Source: Bacteroidota bacterium (GTDB lineage Bacteria; Bacteroidota; Bacteroidia; Flavobacteriales_C; GCA-002722245). Taken from it: a DNA stretch of 52,404 bases. The notes under the pieces were generated by a model. It had not been told where the DNA came from. It worked only from the letters and a program-made list of their open reading frames with translations, and did no database searches. The stretch is from contig JAPLEZ010000032.1 of the NCBI GenBank assembly GCA_026390935.1, positions 7,055 to 59,458 on the forward strand. Direction: 5' to 3'. The position numbers and the translations under genes were made by a program. Below, in pieces: positions 1 through 52,404 of this stretch (the stretch's first letter is position 1; every line of letters starts with the position of its first letter).

Positions 1-990
1 GGTGATTTTGGTGTAACTCCATTTGATGTTGTGGCCATTTTTTTTGAGCATGGCATCAATAAATTGCTCTTCAGAATTATTTTTTCCACCTTCTTCATCC
101 TCGTCTACCCACAATTGCGGAAAGTTTTTTTGTATATCGGCAGGCATCATTCCTGCAAAAATTGCATTGCGCGCAAACTGAGTGGCGGTGGGCAATATAG
201 AGTAGTAGCAATCTTCTTCTTTTACCATGAAATGTTCACTGAAGGTTTCTTGCAAAACTTTCCATTGATCGTATCGAAGACAGTCAATTAGTAAAAAGTA
301 AACCGGATTTCCTTTGCCAATATGCGGTGCAACTTTTTGTTTGAAAAGGTTATTCGACATTAATGGCGCATCCTGTGGTTTGTTGACCCATGACACATAA
401 TTTCTTTCTACGTATTTACAAAACTGCAAATTGGCTTCGGCTTTTTGTGTGTCCAAAGTTTCAGTCATGCTAGGTTCTTTTGCTAAATCCATCTGCATGT
501 CCCAGTACACCATTTCCTTGTAAAAGCTGATCCATTCGCGCCAATCCATGTTTTCATTGAGGCGCATGGAAATTTTACGGAACTCTTGTAAATATTCGGA
601 AACCGATTTCTGACTTACCAGTTTTTTCTCGTCGAGGTTCTTTTTAATCGACAATAAAATCTGATTGGGATTTACTGGTTTGATGAGGTAATCGGAGATT
701 TCGGAACCAATGGCATTTTCCATGATCATCTCTTCTTCACTTTTGGTGATCATGATGACAGGAATAGATTTCTTTATTTTTTTTATTTCCTGAAGGGTGT
801 CGATGCCGGTGAGTCCGGGCATGTTTTCATCTAAAAAAACGATGTCGAAATATTCCGTCCTGATTTTCTCAAGTGCTTCGTTACCGCTTAAAACAGTGCA
901 AACGTCGTAGCCCTTCGCAGTGAGGAAAAGCACGTGGGGTTTCAATAAATCAATTTCGTCGTCGGCCCAAAGTATTTTAATTTTCTCCAT
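1..990 (-). CDS. porX: PorX-type response regulator with PglZ domain (3' part outside window)
   Basis: The reading frame is open from the ATG at 988-990 to the left edge, giving 330 residues; family members are about 520 residues, so the C-terminal third is missing. Residues 1-125 form a CheY-like receiver (start MEKIKILWADDE, phospho-acceptor Asp in FLDENMPG, conserved Lys in the SDYLIKPVNP segment). The following region includes the start of a PglZ alkaline-phosphatase-like domain (FLLIDCLRYDQW and the segment SILPTATQFARNAIF). This receiver-PglZ combination is the known PorX architecture, a regulator of the type IX secretion system acting with the kinase PorY in Bacteroidota. It fits the type IX sorting domain on the protein at 16424-20035. 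PorY is not in the window. Confidence 0.9.
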   Translation of the reverse strand, partial: MEKIKILWADDEIDLLKPHVLFLTAKGYDVCTVLSGNEALEKIRTEYFDIVFLDENMPGLTGIDTLQEIKKIKKSIPVIMITKSEEEMIMENAIGSEISDYLIKPVNPNQILLSIKKNLDEKKLVSQKSVSEYLQEFRKISMRLNENMDWREWISFYKEMVYWDMQMDLAKEPSMTETLDTQKAEANLQFCKYVERNYVSWVNKPQDAPLMSNNLFKQKVAPHIGKGNPVYFLLIDCLRYDQWKVLQETFSEHFMVKEEDCYYSILPTATQFARNAIFAGMMPADIQKNFPQLWVDEDEEGGKNNSEEQFIDAMLKKNGHNIKWSYTKIT

Positions 991-999
991 TTTGTTATA

Positions 1000-1113
1000 G
1001 TTCAAAGTTTAAGGTTCAAAGTTTAAGGTTGTAGACCGTATTCATTCTGTTCGAAAATAGAAATTTGCAAGGATAGTTTGCTAACTTTGATCTTTGAACA
1101 TTAAACTTTGAAC
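1000..1113. repeat. Inverted-repeat element, copy 1 of 2
   Basis: The 22-base arm at 1000-1021 (GTTCAAAGTTTAAGGTTCAAAG) is the reverse complement of 1092-1113 with one mismatch. The left arm is itself a tandem duplication of a TTCAAAGTTTAAGG unit. About 70 bases separate the arms. A related element lies at 41738-41833, also directly upstream of a gene. The right arm contains the only start codon available to the gene at 1108. It could be a terminator-like or MITE-like element; no transposase is associated. Confidence 0.7.
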
Positions 1114-42848: not shown

Positions 42849-42925
42849 GGTTCGGTAGTTCAGTTGGTTAGAATGCCTGCCTGTCACGCAGGAGGTCGCG
42901 GGTTCGAGTCCCGTCCGGACCGCCA
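42849..42925 (+). tRNA. tRNA-Asp (GTC)
   Basis: 77 bases with encoded CCA. Acceptor GGTTCGG pairs with CCGGACC, the anticodon GTC lies at 42883-42885 in the loop CTGTCAC, and the T-arm reads GCGGGTTCGAGTCCCGT. It lies at the boundary between the core genes on its left and the accessory region on its right. No second copy of its 3' end is seen in the window. Confidence 0.97.
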
Positions 42926-43972: not shown

Positions 43973-44272
43973 ATGAAGAAACATATGCAAAATGAGAATA
44001 TACCAATTTGGCAACTTTCTGTAGAGGAACTTCAGAAAATGATTGAAACCGTTGTTTATAAAGCAATGAGCGGGAAAGAGAAAGTGGTCCAAATAAAAAA
44101 GGAAATAGAATTGCTTTCGAGAAAAGCGGTTGCAAAAACTTTCGGAATAAGTTTAGTTACACTCAATAAGTGGAAAAAACTAGGGTTGCTTCCTAAGCCA
44201 ATCAAGCAGGGAGGGAAAGTGTTGTTTGTTAAATCAGAAATAGAAGATTTAATCTTAAAAGGTAGATTATGA
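43973..44272 (+). CDS. HTH DNA-binding protein (excisionase/MerR-like)
   Basis: 99 residues. A winged-helix-like HTH of the helix_turn_helix 17/excisionase type occupies about 48-95 (LSRKAVAKTFGISLVTLNKW, then KPIKQGGKVLFVKSEIEDLI). Such small proteins are frequent on Bacteroidota mobile elements. The next gene overlaps its stop by four bases. Confidence 0.75.
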   Translation: MKKHMQNENIPIWQLSVEELQKMIETVVYKAMSGKEKVVQIKKEIELLSRKAVAKTFGISLVTLNKWKKLGLLPKPIKQGGKVLFVKSEIEDLILKGRL

Positions 44273-44890: not shown

Positions 44891-45000
44891 ATCAAGAGAG
44901 AAAGGAATCAATGGAGCGATGATTTCTTAATGATAATTATTAATCTTGTAAAAACTAAGTAAGGTGATGCCTAATTAATTTGTCGTCTGTAAAATTATCC

Positions 45001-45633
45001 ATGGAAATGATAGATCTTTGGTATGTAAATGTTGATTTTGTTAGCGACGAAGGGCATAATAATCTTCTGAAATTACTACCTTCTTTTATCCGGCAGGATA
45101 TAATAAGATACAAATTCTTGAAGGATCAGAAGTTAAAGTTATTTGCCAGGTTATTGATTGCCAGATATTACCATGAAGATATCAAAGACTTTGACTGGAC
45201 TGAATGGAAAACAGATCAAAAGGGAAAACCCTATTTAACACAAGGAAGATATTTTAATATCACTCATTCCGGCGACTATGTATTGGTAGCTTTTTCAAAG
45301 GATGAAATTGGCGTTGACCTGGAAAAAATTAAAGAAATTGATGTTGAATCGTTTTTAGGATTCCTTCATATTGACGAAAAGACACATCTTCAATCTAATC
45401 CGGATAAGGAATCTTTTTATGAGGTTTGGACCAGGAAAGAAGCGTTTCTTAAGGCACAGGGGATTGGAATTGTTAAAGGGCTGAATAATGAAAATTGCTT
45501 GAATTCATTGGTTGAGAAGGAGAGAAAATGGTTTATTCAGTCGCTGACTTTTGATAAAGAGTATAAATTGGCTATCTGTACAACTATTGAAAACGCCGCT
45601 GTAAAAATTCAAGATGTTATTGATTGGCATTAG
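45001..45633 (+). CDS. Sfp-type 4'-phosphopantetheinyl transferase
   Basis: 210 residues from ATG 45001 (a TTG at 44980 adds seven). The hallmark metal-binding segment GVDLEKIKEID and the WTRKEAFLKAQGIGI motif identify the Sfp/AcpT family; FNITHSGDYVLVAFS is the substrate-binding part. It attaches phosphopantetheine from CoA to carrier-protein serines and would activate the free ACP and the synthetase carrier domain encoded downstream. It opens the biosynthetic operon, 10 bases before the thioesterase. Confidence 0.9.
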   Translation: MEMIDLWYVNVDFVSDEGHNNLLKLLPSFIRQDIIRYKFLKDQKLKLFARLLIARYYHEDIKDFDWTEWKTDQKGKPYLTQGRYFNITHSGDYVLVAFSKDEIGVDLEKIKEIDVESFLGFLHIDEKTHLQSNPDKESFYEVWTRKEAFLKAQGIGIVKGLNNENCLNSLVEKERKWFIQSLTFDKEYKLAICTTIENAAVKIQDVIDWH

Positions 45634-45643
45634 ATAATGTAAA

Positions 45644-46330
45644 ATGAAAAAAGTTAAAGTGTTTATGTTGCATTTTGCCGGAGGAAACAAGTATTCCTTT
45701 CGTTTTCTTCAGGATAAATTAGATAATTATGAAACCATTCCATTGGAACTTCCGGGGAGAGGTAGTCGGTTTGGAGAGCCATTGATTTATGACGCGAAAT
45801 CGGCGGTGAAGGATATTTATTACCAAATCAAACAGCATTTAGTAGCTGAAGATATATTCATTATTTACGGTCATAGTATGGGGGCTAAGCTTGGTTTTCA
45901 TGTTATTCATGAGTTGGAAAAAGAAGGCTTATGGCCTAAATGTTTTATTGCTACTGGTAATGCAGGGCCTGGTTTACCCAGAGATAAAATCCGATATAAG
46001 CTTCCGGATAATGAGTTTGTTGTTGAGTTAAAAAAGTTGGGAGGTACTCCTACTGAATTTTTTGATAACGAAGAGTTATATAAATTGTTTTCCCCCATTA
46101 TGAGAGCCGATTTTCAAATAGTGGAGGCTGAAGACGAAAAGGTAGACTTTAAAATTAAGACTTCTCTTTTTGTTTTAATGGGTGATCAGGAAGAAATGGT
46201 TTCGAATATTACGAATTGGGCAAAATATGCTGAGGAATTTCAATTTAAATTATTGCCTGGAGATCATTTTTTTATATATAATCATAGTGTGGAAATTACG
46301 CACATAATTACCAATTGTGCAAATAACTGA
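45644..46330 (+). CDS. Type II thioesterase
   Basis: 228-residue alpha/beta hydrolase. The nucleophile is the Ser in GHSMGAKLGFHV, the acid is probably in FVLMGDQEEMV and the His in LPGDHFFIYNH. The start MLHFAGGNKYSFR and PLELPGRGSRFGEPL are typical of type II editing thioesterases, which clear wrong acyl groups from carrier domains in NRPS and PKS systems. It follows the phosphopantetheinyl transferase gene by 10 bases. Confidence 0.9.
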   Translation: MKKVKVFMLHFAGGNKYSFRFLQDKLDNYETIPLELPGRGSRFGEPLIYDAKSAVKDIYYQIKQHLVAEDIFIIYGHSMGAKLGFHVIHELEKEGLWPKCFIATGNAGPGLPRDKIRYKLPDNEFVVELKKLGGTPTEFFDNEELYKLFSPIMRADFQIVEAEDEKVDFKIKTSLFVLMGDQEEMVSNITNWAKYAEEFQFKLLPGDHFFIYNHSVEITHIITNCANN

Positions 46331-46395
46331 TCAAAAAAGAAGAGAATTGTAGAAAAAAGTATAATTTCGCCCTACCTAGCTAAATTATTTATCAC

Positions 46396-46671
46396 ATGGA
46401 AACATCCAATAGTAAACATCATTTAGATGTTGAAATTCAGGTTATTAATCTGGTCTGTTCAGTTTGCGAAATTGAAATTAAGGATCATAATGTGGAACTT
46501 AACAGTTCCATAAAAGATTTGGGCATTGATTCAATACGATTCATGAGTTTGTTGATTGGAATAGAGGAGATCATTGATTGTGAAATTGAGGATGTTATTG
46601 CTGAGATTGAGTTTTCTGAATTGAAGACTGTTGGAGATATTGCTGAATTGGTGAAGAAATTTAAACGGTAA
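46396..46671 (+). CDS. Free-standing acyl/peptidyl carrier protein
   Basis: 91 residues with the phosphopantetheine site in DLGIDSIRFMSLLIGIEE and a four-helix-type pattern. The modified Ser is that of GIDSI. It would hold an intermediate for the enzymes encoded next to it. It is 5 bases before the adenylating enzyme gene. Confidence 0.9.
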   Translation: METSNSKHHLDVEIQVINLVCSVCEIEIKDHNVELNSSIKDLGIDSIRFMSLLIGIEEIIDCEIEDVIAEIEFSELKTVGDIAELVKKFKR

Positions 46672-46676
46672 CTCTT

Positions 46677-48305
46677 ATGAAAGACGTTTGGTATAAAGCG
46701 TATCAAAAGCTAGAAAAAGAGACTAATCGGCATATTTGTTACTTCGAAAAAAATCAGAGATGCATAAAATCTTTTCAGGATTTTATGCTGGATGTAAATA
46801 AGGCAGTTACCTTAATACAAAAGGCTTCTAATAATCCCGGATTAGGAAAAAAAATCGGGATACTTGGGACAACATCATATATGTGGATGGTGATTGATCA
46901 TGCATGTATTAGGGGTGGATTCCAATCTGTTGCAATACCAGAAACTTTTTCTCAGGAGGCACTTAACGAGGTAATTTCAGGATTAGGTTTAGATTTGATT
47001 TTAGTTGATTATTCTCTTGTCAGTTCGTTTTCTTTTGAGAAAGTAAAATCACTTTATTTTAATGTAGATGAGGATTCTACGCTAGATTCTTTTATCATAA
47101 AAGAATCTACAGTTCCTTTCTATTCTAATAAAAATTTAATACAGGAGGACTTTAGTATTGTATTTTCTTCAGGGACCTCAGAAAAAGTAAAATATATTAA
47201 CAGAAAGTTTTTTAAACAAGAGCATCTTAATCTTTTAAAAAAAATTAAGCTGTATTTCCGATTACGAGGGTCTGTATGGATGATTTTAAGGAAGAAAAAT
47301 AATAAAATTTTTATTTTTCTTCCTTTTTCTCATCCGATGCAAAGGGATTTTGTAAGGATTGCCTTACTTAATGGAATGGATATATTGTTATCTACTCCGC
47401 AAAATTGCATTAAGCACCTTATGATGGAAAAACCCAATATCATGATTTCTGTTCCTCCTGTATATGATGCAATAGCGGAGCTGATAGAGGCACGTATCAA
47501 AAAGTTTACTGGTAAGGAAAAAAAATTATTTAATCTTTTTCTTAAGCTGGGACTAAATAAGAAAAGTGATAAGCATCTCCTTAAAAAATGGTTTGCCAAA
47601 AGGCTATTTGAGAAAGTGAAAAAAGTATATGGTGGACATGCAGACTTATTTGTTACAGGTAGTGCTCCAACAAAAAAAGCTACCCTAGAATCTTTCTATA
47701 AAGTTGGCGTTAAAGTATATGAAGCTTATGGGCAAAGTGAACAAACTACAACTGTTATGAATAGTCCTAAGGATTTTAAAATAGGTAGTGTAGGAAAACC
47801 TGCTAAAGGAACAGTAAAGATTGATGATAATTCAGAGGTGCTTATTAAGTTTAATAAGGAATATGACGCTATTAATGAAAAAGTTTTAAATATCAAGAAT
47901 GATTATATCCACACAGGAGATACTGGTTATATTGATGAAAATGGTTTTTTATTTATTACAGGAAGGGTTGATGATGTAATAGTATTGTCAAGTGGTAAAA
48001 AGGTTTACCCTTTAAAGCTTGAAAAGAAGCTAAATCAAATACCTAAAGTTAAAACATCTCTGGTTTATTCTCCTAATGGATATGATATAAAGGCATTTCT
48101 TTTTTCTGAGACCTCTTCATTATCAGACATAAAGCAACTTATACAGAGGGTAAATAAGGACCTTTTGGAGTATGAAAAAATATCGAGTATTTCATTAATT
48201 GGTAAAGAGCCATCTATTGATAATGGATTACTTACTTCAACTATGAAGCTTAAGAGAAAAAAGGTAATTATAGATTATAAAAATATCGAATCAATTAATA
48301 TATGA
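46677..48305 (+). CDS. Acyl-adenylating enzyme (ANL superfamily), divergent
   Basis: 542 residues resembling long-chain acyl-CoA synthetases. Visible motifs: FVTGSAPTKKATLESFYKVG, VYEAYGQSEQTT (A5), YIHTGDTGYIDENGFLFITG (A7), VDDVIVLSSGKKVYPLKLEK (A8) and the late Lys in LLTSTMKLKRKK (A10). The A3 ATP-binding loop reads FSSGTSEKVKY instead of SGTTGxPKG, so activity may be altered. The gene is AT-rich (line 47281-47340 has 14 of 60 G+C). Next to a free ACP, it could load an acid onto that carrier. The next gene overlaps it by four bases. Confidence 0.85.
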   Translation: MKDVWYKAYQKLEKETNRHICYFEKNQRCIKSFQDFMLDVNKAVTLIQKASNNPGLGKKIGILGTTSYMWMVIDHACIRGGFQSVAIPETFSQEALNEVISGLGLDLILVDYSLVSSFSFEKVKSLYFNVDEDSTLDSFIIKESTVPFYSNKNLIQEDFSIVFSSGTSEKVKYINRKFFKQEHLNLLKKIKLYFRLRGSVWMILRKKNNKIFIFLPFSHPMQRDFVRIALLNGMDILLSTPQNCIKHLMMEKPNIMISVPPVYDAIAELIEARIKKFTGKEKKLFNLFLKLGLNKKSDKHLLKKWFAKRLFEKVKKVYGGHADLFVTGSAPTKKATLESFYKVGVKVYEAYGQSEQTTTVMNSPKDFKIGSVGKPAKGTVKIDDNSEVLIKFNKEYDAINEKVLNIKNDYIHTGDTGYIDENGFLFITGRVDDVIVLSSGKKVYPLKLEKKLNQIPKVKTSLVYSPNGYDIKAFLFSETSSLSDIKQLIQRVNKDLLEYEKISSISLIGKEPSIDNGLLTSTMKLKRKKVIIDYKNIESINI

Positions 48306-49192
48306 AAAATATCATTGATATCCATACCCATATGGCTTATCATGCATTGTATCCTGAAAAGTTTTTAGAAGGAGTGATGAGCCATAAAGATGAAAACTCT
48401 CTTATAACAAGGAAAAGAGTATCCTTAATGAAAGCATTTCTTCGTGATGAATATTGTGAAAAGATGCTCGTTCAAATGAATAATGCCAATATCAAGAAAT
48501 CAATATTGCTTATTGTGGACGATAACGGTGTAATTGGAGAAGCAGATGAAAGCATTGAAGATAGGTATTTAAGACACTATAAAATCTTAAATAAGTACCC
48601 TGGTAGATTTGAGGTTTTTGCAGGTTTTCACCCGGAAAGAGTGGGAGGACTTGACCTTTTAAAGAAAGGTGTTGAAGAATATGGTTTTTCAGGGATAAAG
48701 CTATATCCTCCATTTGGATTCGCAATTGATGATATAAGGTTGAATGATTGTTATGAATATGCTAATTCAAAAAAACTCCCTGTATTAATACATACTGGCT
48801 TTTCAATTGAAAAATTAAAAAATGAATACGCTGAACCAGGAAGAATAGTTAATGTTGCGAAAAACTATCCTAATGTAAATTTCATATTGGCCCATGCTGG
48901 ATTTAAGCTGGACCAACCTTTAATAAGAGAATTGCTGGAAATAGATAATGTTTATGCTGATTTATCGGGATTTATTAATAGCTCCAAGGAGACCTTAAAA
49001 TTAGTGTTTCAGGAGCCGTATAATTCGAAAATACTTTTCGGATCAGATTGGCCTATTGTCAATTTCATGGAACCGTTGAGTAATTTAATTGATAAGGTTA
49101 TTTCAATTTATAATGAAGTAGAATTTCCTGCTGAAAATGCACTTGAAAACATCTTATTTCTAAACGCTAATAAAATTTTGTGTGGTGAGTGA
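48302..49192 (+). CDS. Amidohydrolase_2-family protein (decarboxylase-like TIM barrel)
   Basis: 296 residues. Metal motif IIDIHTHMAYH (DxHxH) at the start, then LPVLIHTGFS, VNFILAHAGF and ILFGSDWPIVNF. This is the amidohydrolase_2 family, which includes ACMSD and gamma-resorcylate decarboxylases and lactonases. Its role could be decarboxylation or hydrolysis of a building block or intermediate. It overlaps both neighbours (4 bases upstream, 8 downstream), so it belongs to the operon. Confidence 0.85.
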   Translation: MKNIIDIHTHMAYHALYPEKFLEGVMSHKDENSLITRKRVSLMKAFLRDEYCEKMLVQMNNANIKKSILLIVDDNGVIGEADESIEDRYLRHYKILNKYPGRFEVFAGFHPERVGGLDLLKKGVEEYGFSGIKLYPPFGFAIDDIRLNDCYEYANSKKLPVLIHTGFSIEKLKNEYAEPGRIVNVAKNYPNVNFILAHAGFKLDQPLIRELLEIDNVYADLSGFINSSKETLKLVFQEPYNSKILFGSDWPIVNFMEPLSNLIDKVISIYNEVEFPAENALENILFLNANKILCGE

Positions 49193-52100
49193 AGATGGAA
49201 AAATATCAGATCTTTCACCTTTCCAATCTATAACAGAGATTGTAGAAAAAAGAGCGGTTTTATTTCCCGATAAGGTAGCTTTTGTTTTTTTGAATGGTAA
49301 AGGGGAAGAAACTGAGCTCACGTATTCTGAGCTTTATGAAGAGGCCAAAAAAATCGCTGCCTATCTGCAAAAAACGGGAAAGAAGGGTGATCGTGTTCTT
49401 TTACTTTTTCCTCAAGGCCTGGATTTTATTAAATCTTTCATGGGCTGTTTGATGGCAGGTATGATTGCCGTTCCGTCCTATCCACCTAAAAAAAATAAAA
49501 AAGGAGCTGGTTTAATTAAAATCATTGAAGATGCAAGTCCTTCCATCGTTTTGTCTATTTCGGGAAGTGGATTTCTTTCAGGTATAGAAAACAATGCTAT
49601 TTCACTTTGTGAAATTGATAAGATTGAAGAAGATTTTGCTTATTCATCCGTTGAAATCAGTAAAGAGGATATCGCCTTTTTGCAATATACTTCAGGTTCA
49701 ACCGGAAATCCAAAAGGAGTGATGGTGTCGCACGGCAATATTTTACACAATGAACTTTCGATAAAGGAAGTCTTTAAAATGTCGGCCAATGATATTTTGG
49801 TAGGTTGGCTTCCTTTTTATCATGATATGGGCTTGATAGGAAATATCCTTCAATCTTTATTCACCGGATTTAAAGCCATTTTAATGGCGCCGATTGATTT
49901 TTTACAATCGCCGACAAAGTGGCTGGAAGCTATATCTCACTATAAAGCAACGGTGAGCGGCGGTCCGAATTTCGCCTATGATTTATGTGTAAAAAGTATT
50001 GATCAGGAAGCTTTAAAAGCCATTGATCTTTCTTCCTGGAAGGTTGCTTTTAACGGTGCAGAACCTGTAAGCGCTAAAACTTTACGTGATTTTCATGAGA
50101 AATTTAAAAGCTGCGGATTTAGTTTTAGTTCATTTTATCCATGTTACGGAATGGCTGAAACTACTTTGCTGATTTCAGGCGGATCTGTTTCTGATTATGG
50201 AAATTTCACGCTTGCAGGAACGGAGCTGGTGAATTGCGGAAGTGTTTCTGCCTTAGACATCAAAATAATTACAGAAGATTTACAGGAGCAGGAAAATGGA
50301 AAAGTGGGAGAAGTCATTGTTAGCGGAGAAAGCGTAGCGCAGGGTTATTGGAATGATGCAGTAAAAACCAAAGAAAATTTTGCTGTTCAACTAAAAGGTA
50401 AAAAGTATTTTAGAACAGGAGATTTAGGGATTTACAGCAATAACAACTTATATATAGCGGGCCGGATAAAGGATTTGATCATCATTAACGGTAGGAATTA
50501 TTATCCTCAGGATATTGAGCATCTGACAGGAATAGCGCATGATTATCTTATTCCAAATTCGGTAGCTGCGTTCAATGTTAATGAAAAACTGGTGGTTGTT
50601 GCTGAGGCGAAACTTAACAGTCAGACCAACAAAGAGCAAATCATCAATGCTGTAGTATCCAATTTGTCAACCGAACTGGAATTACCCATTGATGAGTTGG
50701 TATTGGTTCGTAAAGGGACTTTATCTAAAACCACCAGTGGGAAGATTCAGCGTGCGGCATGCAGGGAAGCGTTTATGAATGAAAAACTACATGAGGTTTT
50801 CCGTTTATCTTCTTTAACTGATACACAAAATTTTGAAGCTGAGGAATTAATTTATACCAGTGAAGAAAAAGAGATTCTGAATGTTTTGAAAGAAGAACTC
50901 GGGAAGGATTTTACCATACCTAGAAACCAATCGTTCTTTAATTATGGGATTGATTCAGTAGTAATAATGAGGATGGTTTTCTTCATTAACGAGCGCTTCA
51001 ATACAGATCTTTCAGCCGATGTTTTGTATGAATATGATACTATAGAAAAATTAATGAAGCAGATATATGCTTCTTTGCCTGTATTATCAACTTTTAATGG
51101 TGATTCTTCTGCTCATGGTAAGGCATCAAGTCTTCAAATCAGTATGTGGATCAATCAGCAAAAAAACATTAATAGTTCTGCATACAATATTCCAATGTTC
51201 CTTGATGTTGGTGAAGATGTATGTGTTGAATGCCTCCGTGTCGCCACTAATAACTTGCTTAAAAAGCATAAAATTCTTCGGTCAACATTTGATTTGAGAG
51301 AAGAGAAATTATATCGAAAATCTGATTCTGTAAATTCAGTTAATATTCAGGAGTATGAAGTCGATGGAGAAAATCAATTTAATCTAAAAGTCACAAAGAT
51401 CTGCAGAAAAGCATTTGATCTTAAAAAAGGCCCATTATTTAGTTTTAGTGTAATAAAAAATAAAAACGGAGGATCAAGGGTTTTGTTTGTGATTCATCAT
51501 ATTATTATTGACGGAACTTCTTTAATGATAATGGTTAAAGAACTTGAAGAGAGATATTTTTCTATTAAAAGCATAGGAAGTGATACTGTTGATATTTCTG
51601 AAAGTAGATATTTTGATAAATATGTATTTGATGAACAAGAATTGTTAAAAGGCGAGGGGAAGAATATTAAAAAGAAATATTGGAAAAATTTCCTTGAGAA
51701 TTATAATGAGAAAATAAAGTTGCCTACTGAAAACACAAGTATTTCTTTAAATCGTGAGGGGGCAAGTATATATTTTGAATTTGATAGTTCCTTTACTTTC
51801 CTTATAAGGGAATTTGCTCAGAGTAATAACATTAATTTGTTTTCTTGTTTATTGGCGGGATATAATGTTTTCCTTAGTAAGATCAGTGGAAGTAAGGATT
51901 TAGTTGTTGGGATACCGGTTTCTTTGCGCTCTAAAGAAGAATATTTAAGAGCTTCAGGGTTGTTTATTAATCCTTTAATGTTTAGATCAAAAATTGAAAA
52001 TTTTGAAACTTTCAGCAGTTTGGTTAAAAAGGTATATTCTAATTCAAGAGAAGCTATTAAAAATGGAAATTATCCTTTTGGAGAGATATTAAAAGATATA

Positions 52101-52404
52101 GCGATTAATGGTGTTGAAGATCAACTTGCCCTTACTTCAGTATATTTTAATTTTTTAGATTTTGTTCAGGATGAATCAGGGAAAAGGTTCTTTGATGTTT
52201 ATCAATCTAATATCGGAGTAGATATTAATTTTGATATGAATTTATATGTTCTCCCTGAGGCTGACATAATAAGATTTCGATTAGATTATTGTAAATATTC
52301 CTTTTCTGAAGATTCAATAAAGAATCTTGTTTCTTATTTTTCTTCAATAATAAAAGAATCCATAGCAAAACCAGGTGAACTGGTTGTCAATATTGAAGGT
52401 GAGT
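49185..52404 (+). CDS. Nonribosomal peptide synthetase, FAAL-carrier-condensation start (3' end outside window)
   Basis: Open from GTG 49185 (or GTG 49182) to the right edge, more than 1070 residues. A fatty-acyl-AMP ligase-like domain (about 1-530) shows FLQYTSGSTGNPKGVMVS (about 167), GWLPFYHDMGLIGNIL (about 207), YFRTGDLG and the Lys in TTSGKIQRA; the FYHDMGL form is typical of FAALs. A carrier domain has FFNYGIDSVVIMRMVFF (Ser about 587). A condensation domain has VIHHIIIDGTSLMIM (HHxxxDG, about 770) and continues past the window. FAALs load fatty acids on a carrier without CoA, so the product is probably a lipopeptide. GC falls after the carrier domain. Confidence 0.9.
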   Translation, partial: MSEDGKISDLSPFQSITEIVEKRAVLFPDKVAFVFLNGKGEETELTYSELYEEAKKIAAYLQKTGKKGDRVLLLFPQGLDFIKSFMGCLMAGMIAVPSYPPKKNKKGAGLIKIIEDASPSIVLSISGSGFLSGIENNAISLCEIDKIEEDFAYSSVEISKEDIAFLQYTSGSTGNPKGVMVSHGNILHNELSIKEVFKMSANDILVGWLPFYHDMGLIGNILQSLFTGFKAILMAPIDFLQSPTKWLEAISHYKATVSGGPNFAYDLCVKSIDQEALKAIDLSSWKVAFNGAEPVSAKTLRDFHEKFKSCGFSFSSFYPCYGMAETTLLISGGSVSDYGNFTLAGTELVNCGSVSALDIKIITEDLQEQENGKVGEVIVSGESVAQGYWNDAVKTKENFAVQLKGKKYFRTGDLGIYSNNNLYIAGRIKDLIIINGRNYYPQDIEHLTGIAHDYLIPNSVAAFNVNEKLVVVAEAKLNSQTNKEQIINAVVSNLSTELELPIDELVLVRKGTLSKTTSGKIQRAACREAFMNEKLHEVFRLSSLTDTQNFEAEELIYTSEEKEILNVLKEELGKDFTIPRNQSFFNYGIDSVVIMRMVFFINERFNTDLSADVLYEYDTIEKLMKQIYASLPVLSTFNGDSSAHGKASSLQISMWINQQKNINSSAYNIPMFLDVGEDVCVECLRVATNNLLKKHKILRSTFDLREEKLYRKSDSVNSVNIQEYEVDGENQFNLKVTKICRKAFDLKKGPLFSFSVIKNKNGGSRVLFVIHHIIIDGTSLMIMVKELEERYFSIKSIGSDTVDISESRYFDKYVFDEQELLKGEGKNIKKKYWKNFLENYNEKIKLPTENTSISLNREGASIYFEFDSSFTFLIREFAQSNNINLFSCLLAGYNVFLSKISGSKDLVVGIPVSLRSKEEYLRASGLFINPLMFRSKIENFETFSSLVKKVYSNSREAIKNGNYPFGEILKDIAINGVEDQLALTSVYFNFLDFVQDESGKRFFDVYQSNIGVDINFDMNLYVLPEADIIRFRLDYCKYSFSEDSIKNLVSYFSSIIKESIAKPGELVVNIEGE

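Follow-up and report, generated by a model that had tools for sequence, protein, structure and literature searches.

Gene content of the cluster

The window analysed here is a 52,404-bp stretch of the Bacteroidota genome assembly GCA_026390935.1 (3.76 Mb in 155 contigs; probably class Bacteroidia, judging by gene content and relatives), comprising bases 7055–59458 of the 59,458-bp contig JAPLEZ010000032.1. Six genes lie on a single strand at its right-hand end (Table 1). They encode a 4'-phosphopantetheinyl transferase (PPTase), a type II thioesterase (TEII), a free-standing acyl carrier protein (ACP), a free-standing adenylating enzyme of the ANL family, an amidohydrolase of the family PF04909, and a non-ribosomal peptide synthetase (NRPS) that opens with a fatty acyl-AMP ligase (FAAL) domain, an ACP domain and a condensation (C) domain. 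Our reading is that the window carries the 5' part of a FAAL-initiated lipopeptide NRPS cluster, probably acquired horizontally, with a conserved starter cassette at its head; we give this reading a little better than an even chance of being correct.

All six genes named in the initial annotation are present, each with a significant Pfam match. They contain neither frameshifts nor internal stops, and their catalytic motifs are kept. Successive genes are separated by 10, 65 and 5 bases and then overlap by 4 bases and by 11 bases (or 8, should the synthetase start at the second GTG, position 49185). The spacing first described was short gaps or overlaps of 4 to 8 bases; the 65-base gap before the ACP gene is longer than this implies. 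The amidohydrolase gene overlaps both the ANL gene and the synthetase gene, and the arrangement as a whole suggests an operon with coupled translation of these three. No Bacteroidetes -33/-7 promoter pattern was seen at the operon, and matches in the window were no more frequent than chance. The PPTase gene starts with TTG as listed, with an ATG at 45001 as an alternative, and its product matches the AusB-type NCBIfam model at 1.2e-25, which is under the cut-off.

Table 1. Features of the cluster and its left flank, in window coordinates; aa, amino acid positions in the synthetase.
Feature	Position	Strand	Basis
tRNA-Asp (GTC)	42849..42925	+	ARAGORN; end of the block syntenic with congeners
DUF3853/HTH_17 excisionase-like gene	43973..44272	+	Pfam DUF3853 2.6e-7; HTH_17 under its cut-off
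PPTase, Sfp-type	44980..45633	+	Pfam ACPS E 2.5e-13, AASDHPPT_N
TEII, alpha/beta-hydrolase, GHSMG	45644..46330	+	Pfam Thioesterase 1.8e-27
Free-standing ACP, LGIDSI 4'-phosphopantetheine site	46396..46671	+	Pfam PP-binding 4e-8; aligned with Flavobacterium ACPs at the equivalent position
Free-standing ANL enzyme, FadD-like, atypical P-loop FSSGTSEKVKYI	46677..48305	+	Pfam AMP-binding 9e-23, AMP-binding_C_3; motifs
PF04909 amidohydrolase (Amidohydro_2)	48302..49192	+	Pfam 2.9e-23; conserved residues; TIM-barrel model
NRPS FAAL-ACP-C, cut by contig end	49182..52404	+	Pfam; PDB relatives; motifs; orthology
NRPS, FAAL domain	aa 1-~540		
NRPS, ACP domain	aa ~564-625		
NRPS, C domain, HHIIIDG	aa ~648-1067		

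By sequence comparison, the N-terminal domain of the synthetase is firmly a FAAL. Its best PDB relatives are FAALs (7r7g, 6e-129; 3kxw, 8e-121; FadD23/32), and CoA ligases appear only from about 1e-33. Pfam matches to AMP-binding (2.7e-71) and to the DIP2-like C-terminal domain (5.6e-13) are followed by PP-binding (8.5e-11), which places a fused acceptor carrier at aa 564–625, and by Condensation (2.2e-69), which covers profile positions 7–440 of 456 with the active-site motif HHIIIDG intact. FAALs load fatty acids on the ACPs of NRPS and polyketide synthase (PKS) lines, and their acceptors include holo-ACP fused to the NRPS of lipopeptide pathways (PMC8460268). Domain content and gene order thus support the initial view of a lipopeptide-type operon in which a free ACP/ANL/amidohydrolase trio lies just upstream of a FAAL-initiated NRPS.

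A starter cassette shared with Flavobacteriaceae

The order ACP-ANL-amidohydrolase-FAAL-ACP-C recurs, with identical strand, in three Flavobacteriaceae genomes: Flavobacterium undicola BBQ-18 (NZ_JAAAPM020000002.1), F. daejeonense DSM 17708 (NZ_AUDK01000006.1) and the Flavobacteriaceae genome G558 (G558:C31). Identity to the window proteins is 51–53% for the ANL enzyme, 50–53% for the amidohydrolase and 48–49% for the FAAL domain, and about 40% for the synthetase part as a whole. The C domain that follows the FAAL is 33–35% identical to its counterparts, as against 24–27% to other C domains.

The genes around this unit differ between clusters. Upstream, the Flavobacteriaceae clusters carry an antiterminator-like gene and two alpha/beta-hydrolases, where the window instead has the PPTase and TEII genes. 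Downstream, the Flavobacteriaceae synthetases continue past the first C domain with adenylation and peptidyl carrier domains, arranged as A-PCP and C-A-PCP modules, and the lines diverge after the first modules. In F. undicola, where gene names, as in the other clusters, were read off translations, a second synthetase (C-A-PCP-C) is followed by heme-oxygenase-like oxidase, ATP-grasp, flavin and dioxygenase-like genes and a TEII gene; the downstream genes of F. daejeonense and G558 differ from these. Because upstream and downstream genes vary in this way, the constant unit consists of the trio and the FAAL loading part, and the conserved order supports its being one functional unit. Judged from sequence, ACP-ANL-amidohydrolase-FAAL-ACP-C is a conserved but rare starter cassette, found so far in NRPS clusters that are uncharacterised.

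Its rarity was gauged by scans that were samples or pattern-limited, and non-exhaustive. Short exact ANL peptide patterns, applied to one genome per species, returned F. undicola and F. daejeonense, and 397 genomes of the F. undicola family, searched by profile, added G558. No further trio was present among 399 genomes of the F. undicola genus. Neither the ANL profile, in 395 genomes of the class, nor the amidohydrolase profile, in 395 genomes of the phylum (the two samples overlap), revealed the cassette anywhere besides its own genome, and a viral collection yielded no relatives.

The searches also returned candidates that were set aside. The ANL gene of G014 (28% identity) adjoins a reductase gene and is not part of a trio. 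Adjacent ANL and ACP genes in Flavobacterium G1364, Sinorhizobium and Streptomyces sit in different clusters, where their neighbours are GNAT, C45 peptidase and tRNA-ligase-like genes and an amidohydrolase is lacking. As an observation in its own right, three distant phyla have this ANL-ACP-GNAT-C45 peptidase arrangement, each time beside an NRPS and a tRNA-ligase-like gene (L063 5900-16600 in Flavobacterium G1364; L041 on Sinorhizobium pSmeSM11b; L040 on a Streptomyces plasmid). These clusters, partly on plasmids, look like a shared hydrazine/azoxy-type cluster, here in Flavobacterium too.

The two alpha/beta-hydrolases of the Flavobacterium clusters are distantly like hydrolases 1 and 2 of the exosortase-A system. 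Membership of that accessory set was rejected: they score 43.2 of 168 and 110.7 of 203 bits (hydrolases 1 and 2, respectively), under the cut-offs, and the set is absent from the six window genes. The tailoring set of F. undicola (L034 9259-19968) also includes phytanoyl-CoA dioxygenase-like and isopropylmalate-synthase-like genes.

FAAL-led lipopeptide lines are already known, Bacteroidota included. The chitinopeptin clusters of Bacteroidota are described as FAAL (CAL)-initiated lipopeptide NRPS lines, and share with the window a fatty-acid ligase and ACP ahead of the NRPS modules (PMC9248904). The trio is not mentioned in those parts of the chitinopeptin report that were consulted (PMC9248904). 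No characterised cluster with the ACP-ANL-amidohydrolase trio, and no such trio in the head of a FAAL-led line, was found in the literature searched. The combination was first noted as one that could not be matched to a named product, which stands for that literature; the trio with its FAAL is not unique to the window, being common to the three Flavobacteriaceae clusters.

The enzymes of the trio

The free ACP retains its 4'-phosphopantetheine serine. The ANL enzyme keeps motifs A5, A8 and A10 and has FadD-like C-terminal motifs; its P-loop is family-specific, FSSGTS[EQ]x[VI]KYI replacing TSGSTGxPKG.

The amidohydrolase residues H8-x-H10, H164, H198 and D249 are kept in five homologues, one of them from Nonomuraea. 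Its predicted structure is a TIM barrel (pLDDT 66, pTM 0.72, with a weak N-terminal part) whose best fold matches, at Z 17–21, are PF04909 decarboxylases, hydratases and uncharacterised members. ACMSD, gamma-resorcylate decarboxylase, the LigJ hydratase and the uncharacterised 3irs and 3cjp have the same fold and HxH/H/H/D residues, with 11–22% identity to the window protein where the two align. None of the NCBIfam models matched. With an HxH motif, two later histidines and a C-terminal aspartate on a modelled TIM barrel, the protein is of the PF04909 mononuclear hydrolase/decarboxylase type, as far as motifs and model allow it to be assigned.

The same family includes dinuclear metal oxygenases (ARO; PtmU3/LynB7/SfbO type) that are active in natural product pathways (PMC10811679, PMC10127204), and the fold matches of the model include SfbO and TruffO. 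An enzyme of this kind would hydroxylate the acyl group. Compared by motif, however, the amidohydrolase lacks the ARO ligand set D-x-H...H...E...D-x-x-H: the D-x-H and D-x-x-H ligands (D11/H13 and D320/H323 in LynB7) read H-x-H and D249-W-P-I here. There is also no Rieske partner among the six genes, and we consider an oxygenase very improbable.

An ANL-amidohydrolase pair exists outside Bacteroidota as well. In Nonomuraea gerenzanensis (NZ_LT559118.1, L042 13278-15903), an ANL gene is followed by a gene for an amidohydrolase 33% identical to that of the window. Its neighbours are GMC oxidoreductase, ATP-grasp, BtrH_N-like and ornithine/diaminopimelate (Orn/DAP) decarboxylase genes, and a typical free ACP motif was not seen nearby.

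Proposed function and alternatives

Judging by enzyme and domain families, the PPTase would arm the carriers, the FAAL domain would adenylate a fatty acid and transfer it to the fused ACP, and the fatty acyl group would then be joined to the next residue by the first C domain. In parallel, the free ANL enzyme may charge a carboxylic acid onto the free ACP, and the amidohydrolase may carry out a metal-dependent hydrolysis or decarboxylation of the carrier-bound group or of its product. The TEII, or in Flavobacterium the two alpha/beta-hydrolases, would clear, proofread or release the carrier. The expected outcome would be an unusual building block, either acyl or without an alpha-amino group, placed at the N-terminus or close to it. 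In favour of this, the first A domain behind the FAAL part of the Flavobacterium lines has FSAS at the usual FDxS site, which suggests a non-alpha-amino substrate, and the vicenistatin enzymes VinN/VinL/VinO/VinJ offer a precedent for a free ANL enzyme and free ACP combined with on-carrier chemistry and an amidohydrolase (PMC11284099).

A bolder form of this proposal sees in the trio a pathway so far overlooked: a PF04909 amidohydrolase would work on an acyl group while it is bound to the carrier and so give an unprecedented lipopeptide starter unit, and this portable head for different peptide lines would have spread between Bacteroidota orders on genomic islands. We put it forward tentatively, and think it possible without expecting it. 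The activity of lipopeptides is governed largely by their starter units, of which Bacteroidota have so far provided few. That distant Bacteroidota keep this gene order and vary the rest of the line hints at a single, defined chemical step. As two of the genomes with the cassette come from named strains (F. daejeonense DSM 17708 and F. undicola BBQ-18), the product and the amidohydrolase reaction are directly testable, and the adjacent ANL-amidohydrolase pair offers a handle for genome mining.

Several observations weigh against reading the window as the head of a lipopeptide cluster. The free ACP is poorly conserved, at 25–27% identity to the ACPs of two Flavobacterium species, and the AlphaFold model of the ANL enzyme is unusable (pLDDT 33). 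The two acyl-activating enzymes of the cluster might also act in separate acylations. No thioesterase domain or transport gene was seen. The synthetase frame is still open at base 52404, within the first C domain. The expectation that it continues past the right edge fits this open frame, but the edge is the last base of the contig, so the gene cannot be followed in the assembly. A search of the same assembly for condensation, AMP-binding and PP-binding domains gave no second condensation domain and, outside the cluster, neither an adenylation domain of the NRPS type nor an NRPS carrier; the remaining AMP-binding proteins are Acs, MenE and further stand-alone enzymes, and the carriers elsewhere are AcpP and an ACP encoded next to a ketosynthase (KS) gene. 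A complete assembly line therefore cannot be claimed, and with the synthetase cut and no further NRPS domains at hand, peptide production in this organism is inferred from its relatives.

Either the assembly lacks the remainder of the synthetase, or the gene stops shortly past the contig end. An alternative reading is a dead or truncated cluster remnant at an island edge, making no product; in its favour, the assembly is scored 100% complete and yet yielded nothing past the C domain. Six intact frames with their catalytic motifs and about 40% synthetase identity to relatives argue against decay, and multi-module NRPS genes often break assemblies. We regard a remnant as unlikely.

The point about two acylations can be developed into an alternative in which FAAL and trio are separate inputs: the ANL enzyme and free ACP would deliver a second, independent acyl group (to an oxygen or side chain, for instance), or the trio would prepare the residue for the first amino-acid adenylation (A) domain. 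The FAAL is already served by an ACP in cis, and in F. undicola the second synthetase closes with an additional C domain, which might serve for attaching an acyl group. As far as the other clusters are readable, they show no such terminal C domain. Also relevant here is the first amino-acid A domain in the Flavobacterium lines, which lacks the usual Asp, reading FSAS at the FDxS site (L020 12523-20808, NRPS1; L045 11353-16578, NRPS1, aa 1319). Loss of this Asp usually accompanies substrates without an alpha-amino group, and the sequence suggests an unusual, non-alpha-amino substrate. Overall, separate inputs seem distinctly improbable. In L020, the same A domain has GLGCTE instead of xYGPTE.

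A further alternative places the amidohydrolase late in the pathway. It would remove an acyl cap installed by the FAAL or another protecting group, as a prodrug or protection strategy in the manner of VinJ, with the ANL/ACP pair supplying the group. Residues of the mononuclear hydrolase type are present in the window protein; VinJ itself is not known to have the PF04909 fold. Macrolactam clusters provide an established case of protection and deprotection by an ANL enzyme, a free ACP and an amidohydrolase, among them the vicenistatin set VinN/VinL/VinO/VinM/VinK/VinJ, in which a free ANL enzyme charges a free ACP, chemistry takes place on the carrier and an amidohydrolase acts later (PMC11284099). 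The cluster resembles the vicenistatin pathway in these respects, but vicenistatin is made by an actinobacterial PKS from beta-amino acids with a pyridoxal phosphate (PLP)-dependent decarboxylase. Since the enzyme families differ, the likeness is one of logic and not of membership. The six genes hold no counterpart of VinO (the PLP decarboxylase) or VinK (an acyltransferase), with the right part of the cluster missing, and late deprotection appears rather unlikely.

A probable genomic island setting

The starter-cassette reading includes horizontal acquisition, which bears on the left flank of the cluster. Here, DnaE, thioredoxin and DUF58 genes are syntenic in congeners. Synteny with three of these (G001-G003) ends at the tRNA-Asp gene and its terminator, with none beyond the terminator. 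The tRNA-Asp gene is followed by a gene of no assigned family, the excisionase-like DUF3853 gene, and then the cluster. G+C content is 31–34% after the tRNA-Asp gene compared with 35–42% before it, and no ortholog of the ANL gene was found in four congeners. From the low G+C content, the adjacency to tRNA-Asp, the end of synteny and the missing ANL ortholog, the cluster probably sits on a genomic island and was horizontally acquired, with the tRNA-Asp gene as the probable left attachment site.

Contig C22 (G000:C22:10955-14331, L059) carries a decayed copy of the 3' half of tRNA-Asp together with a similar terminator (94 bases, 91%). This copy adjoins a HipA-like gene and a tyrosine recombinase gene and, on sequence similarity, may represent the right end of the island.

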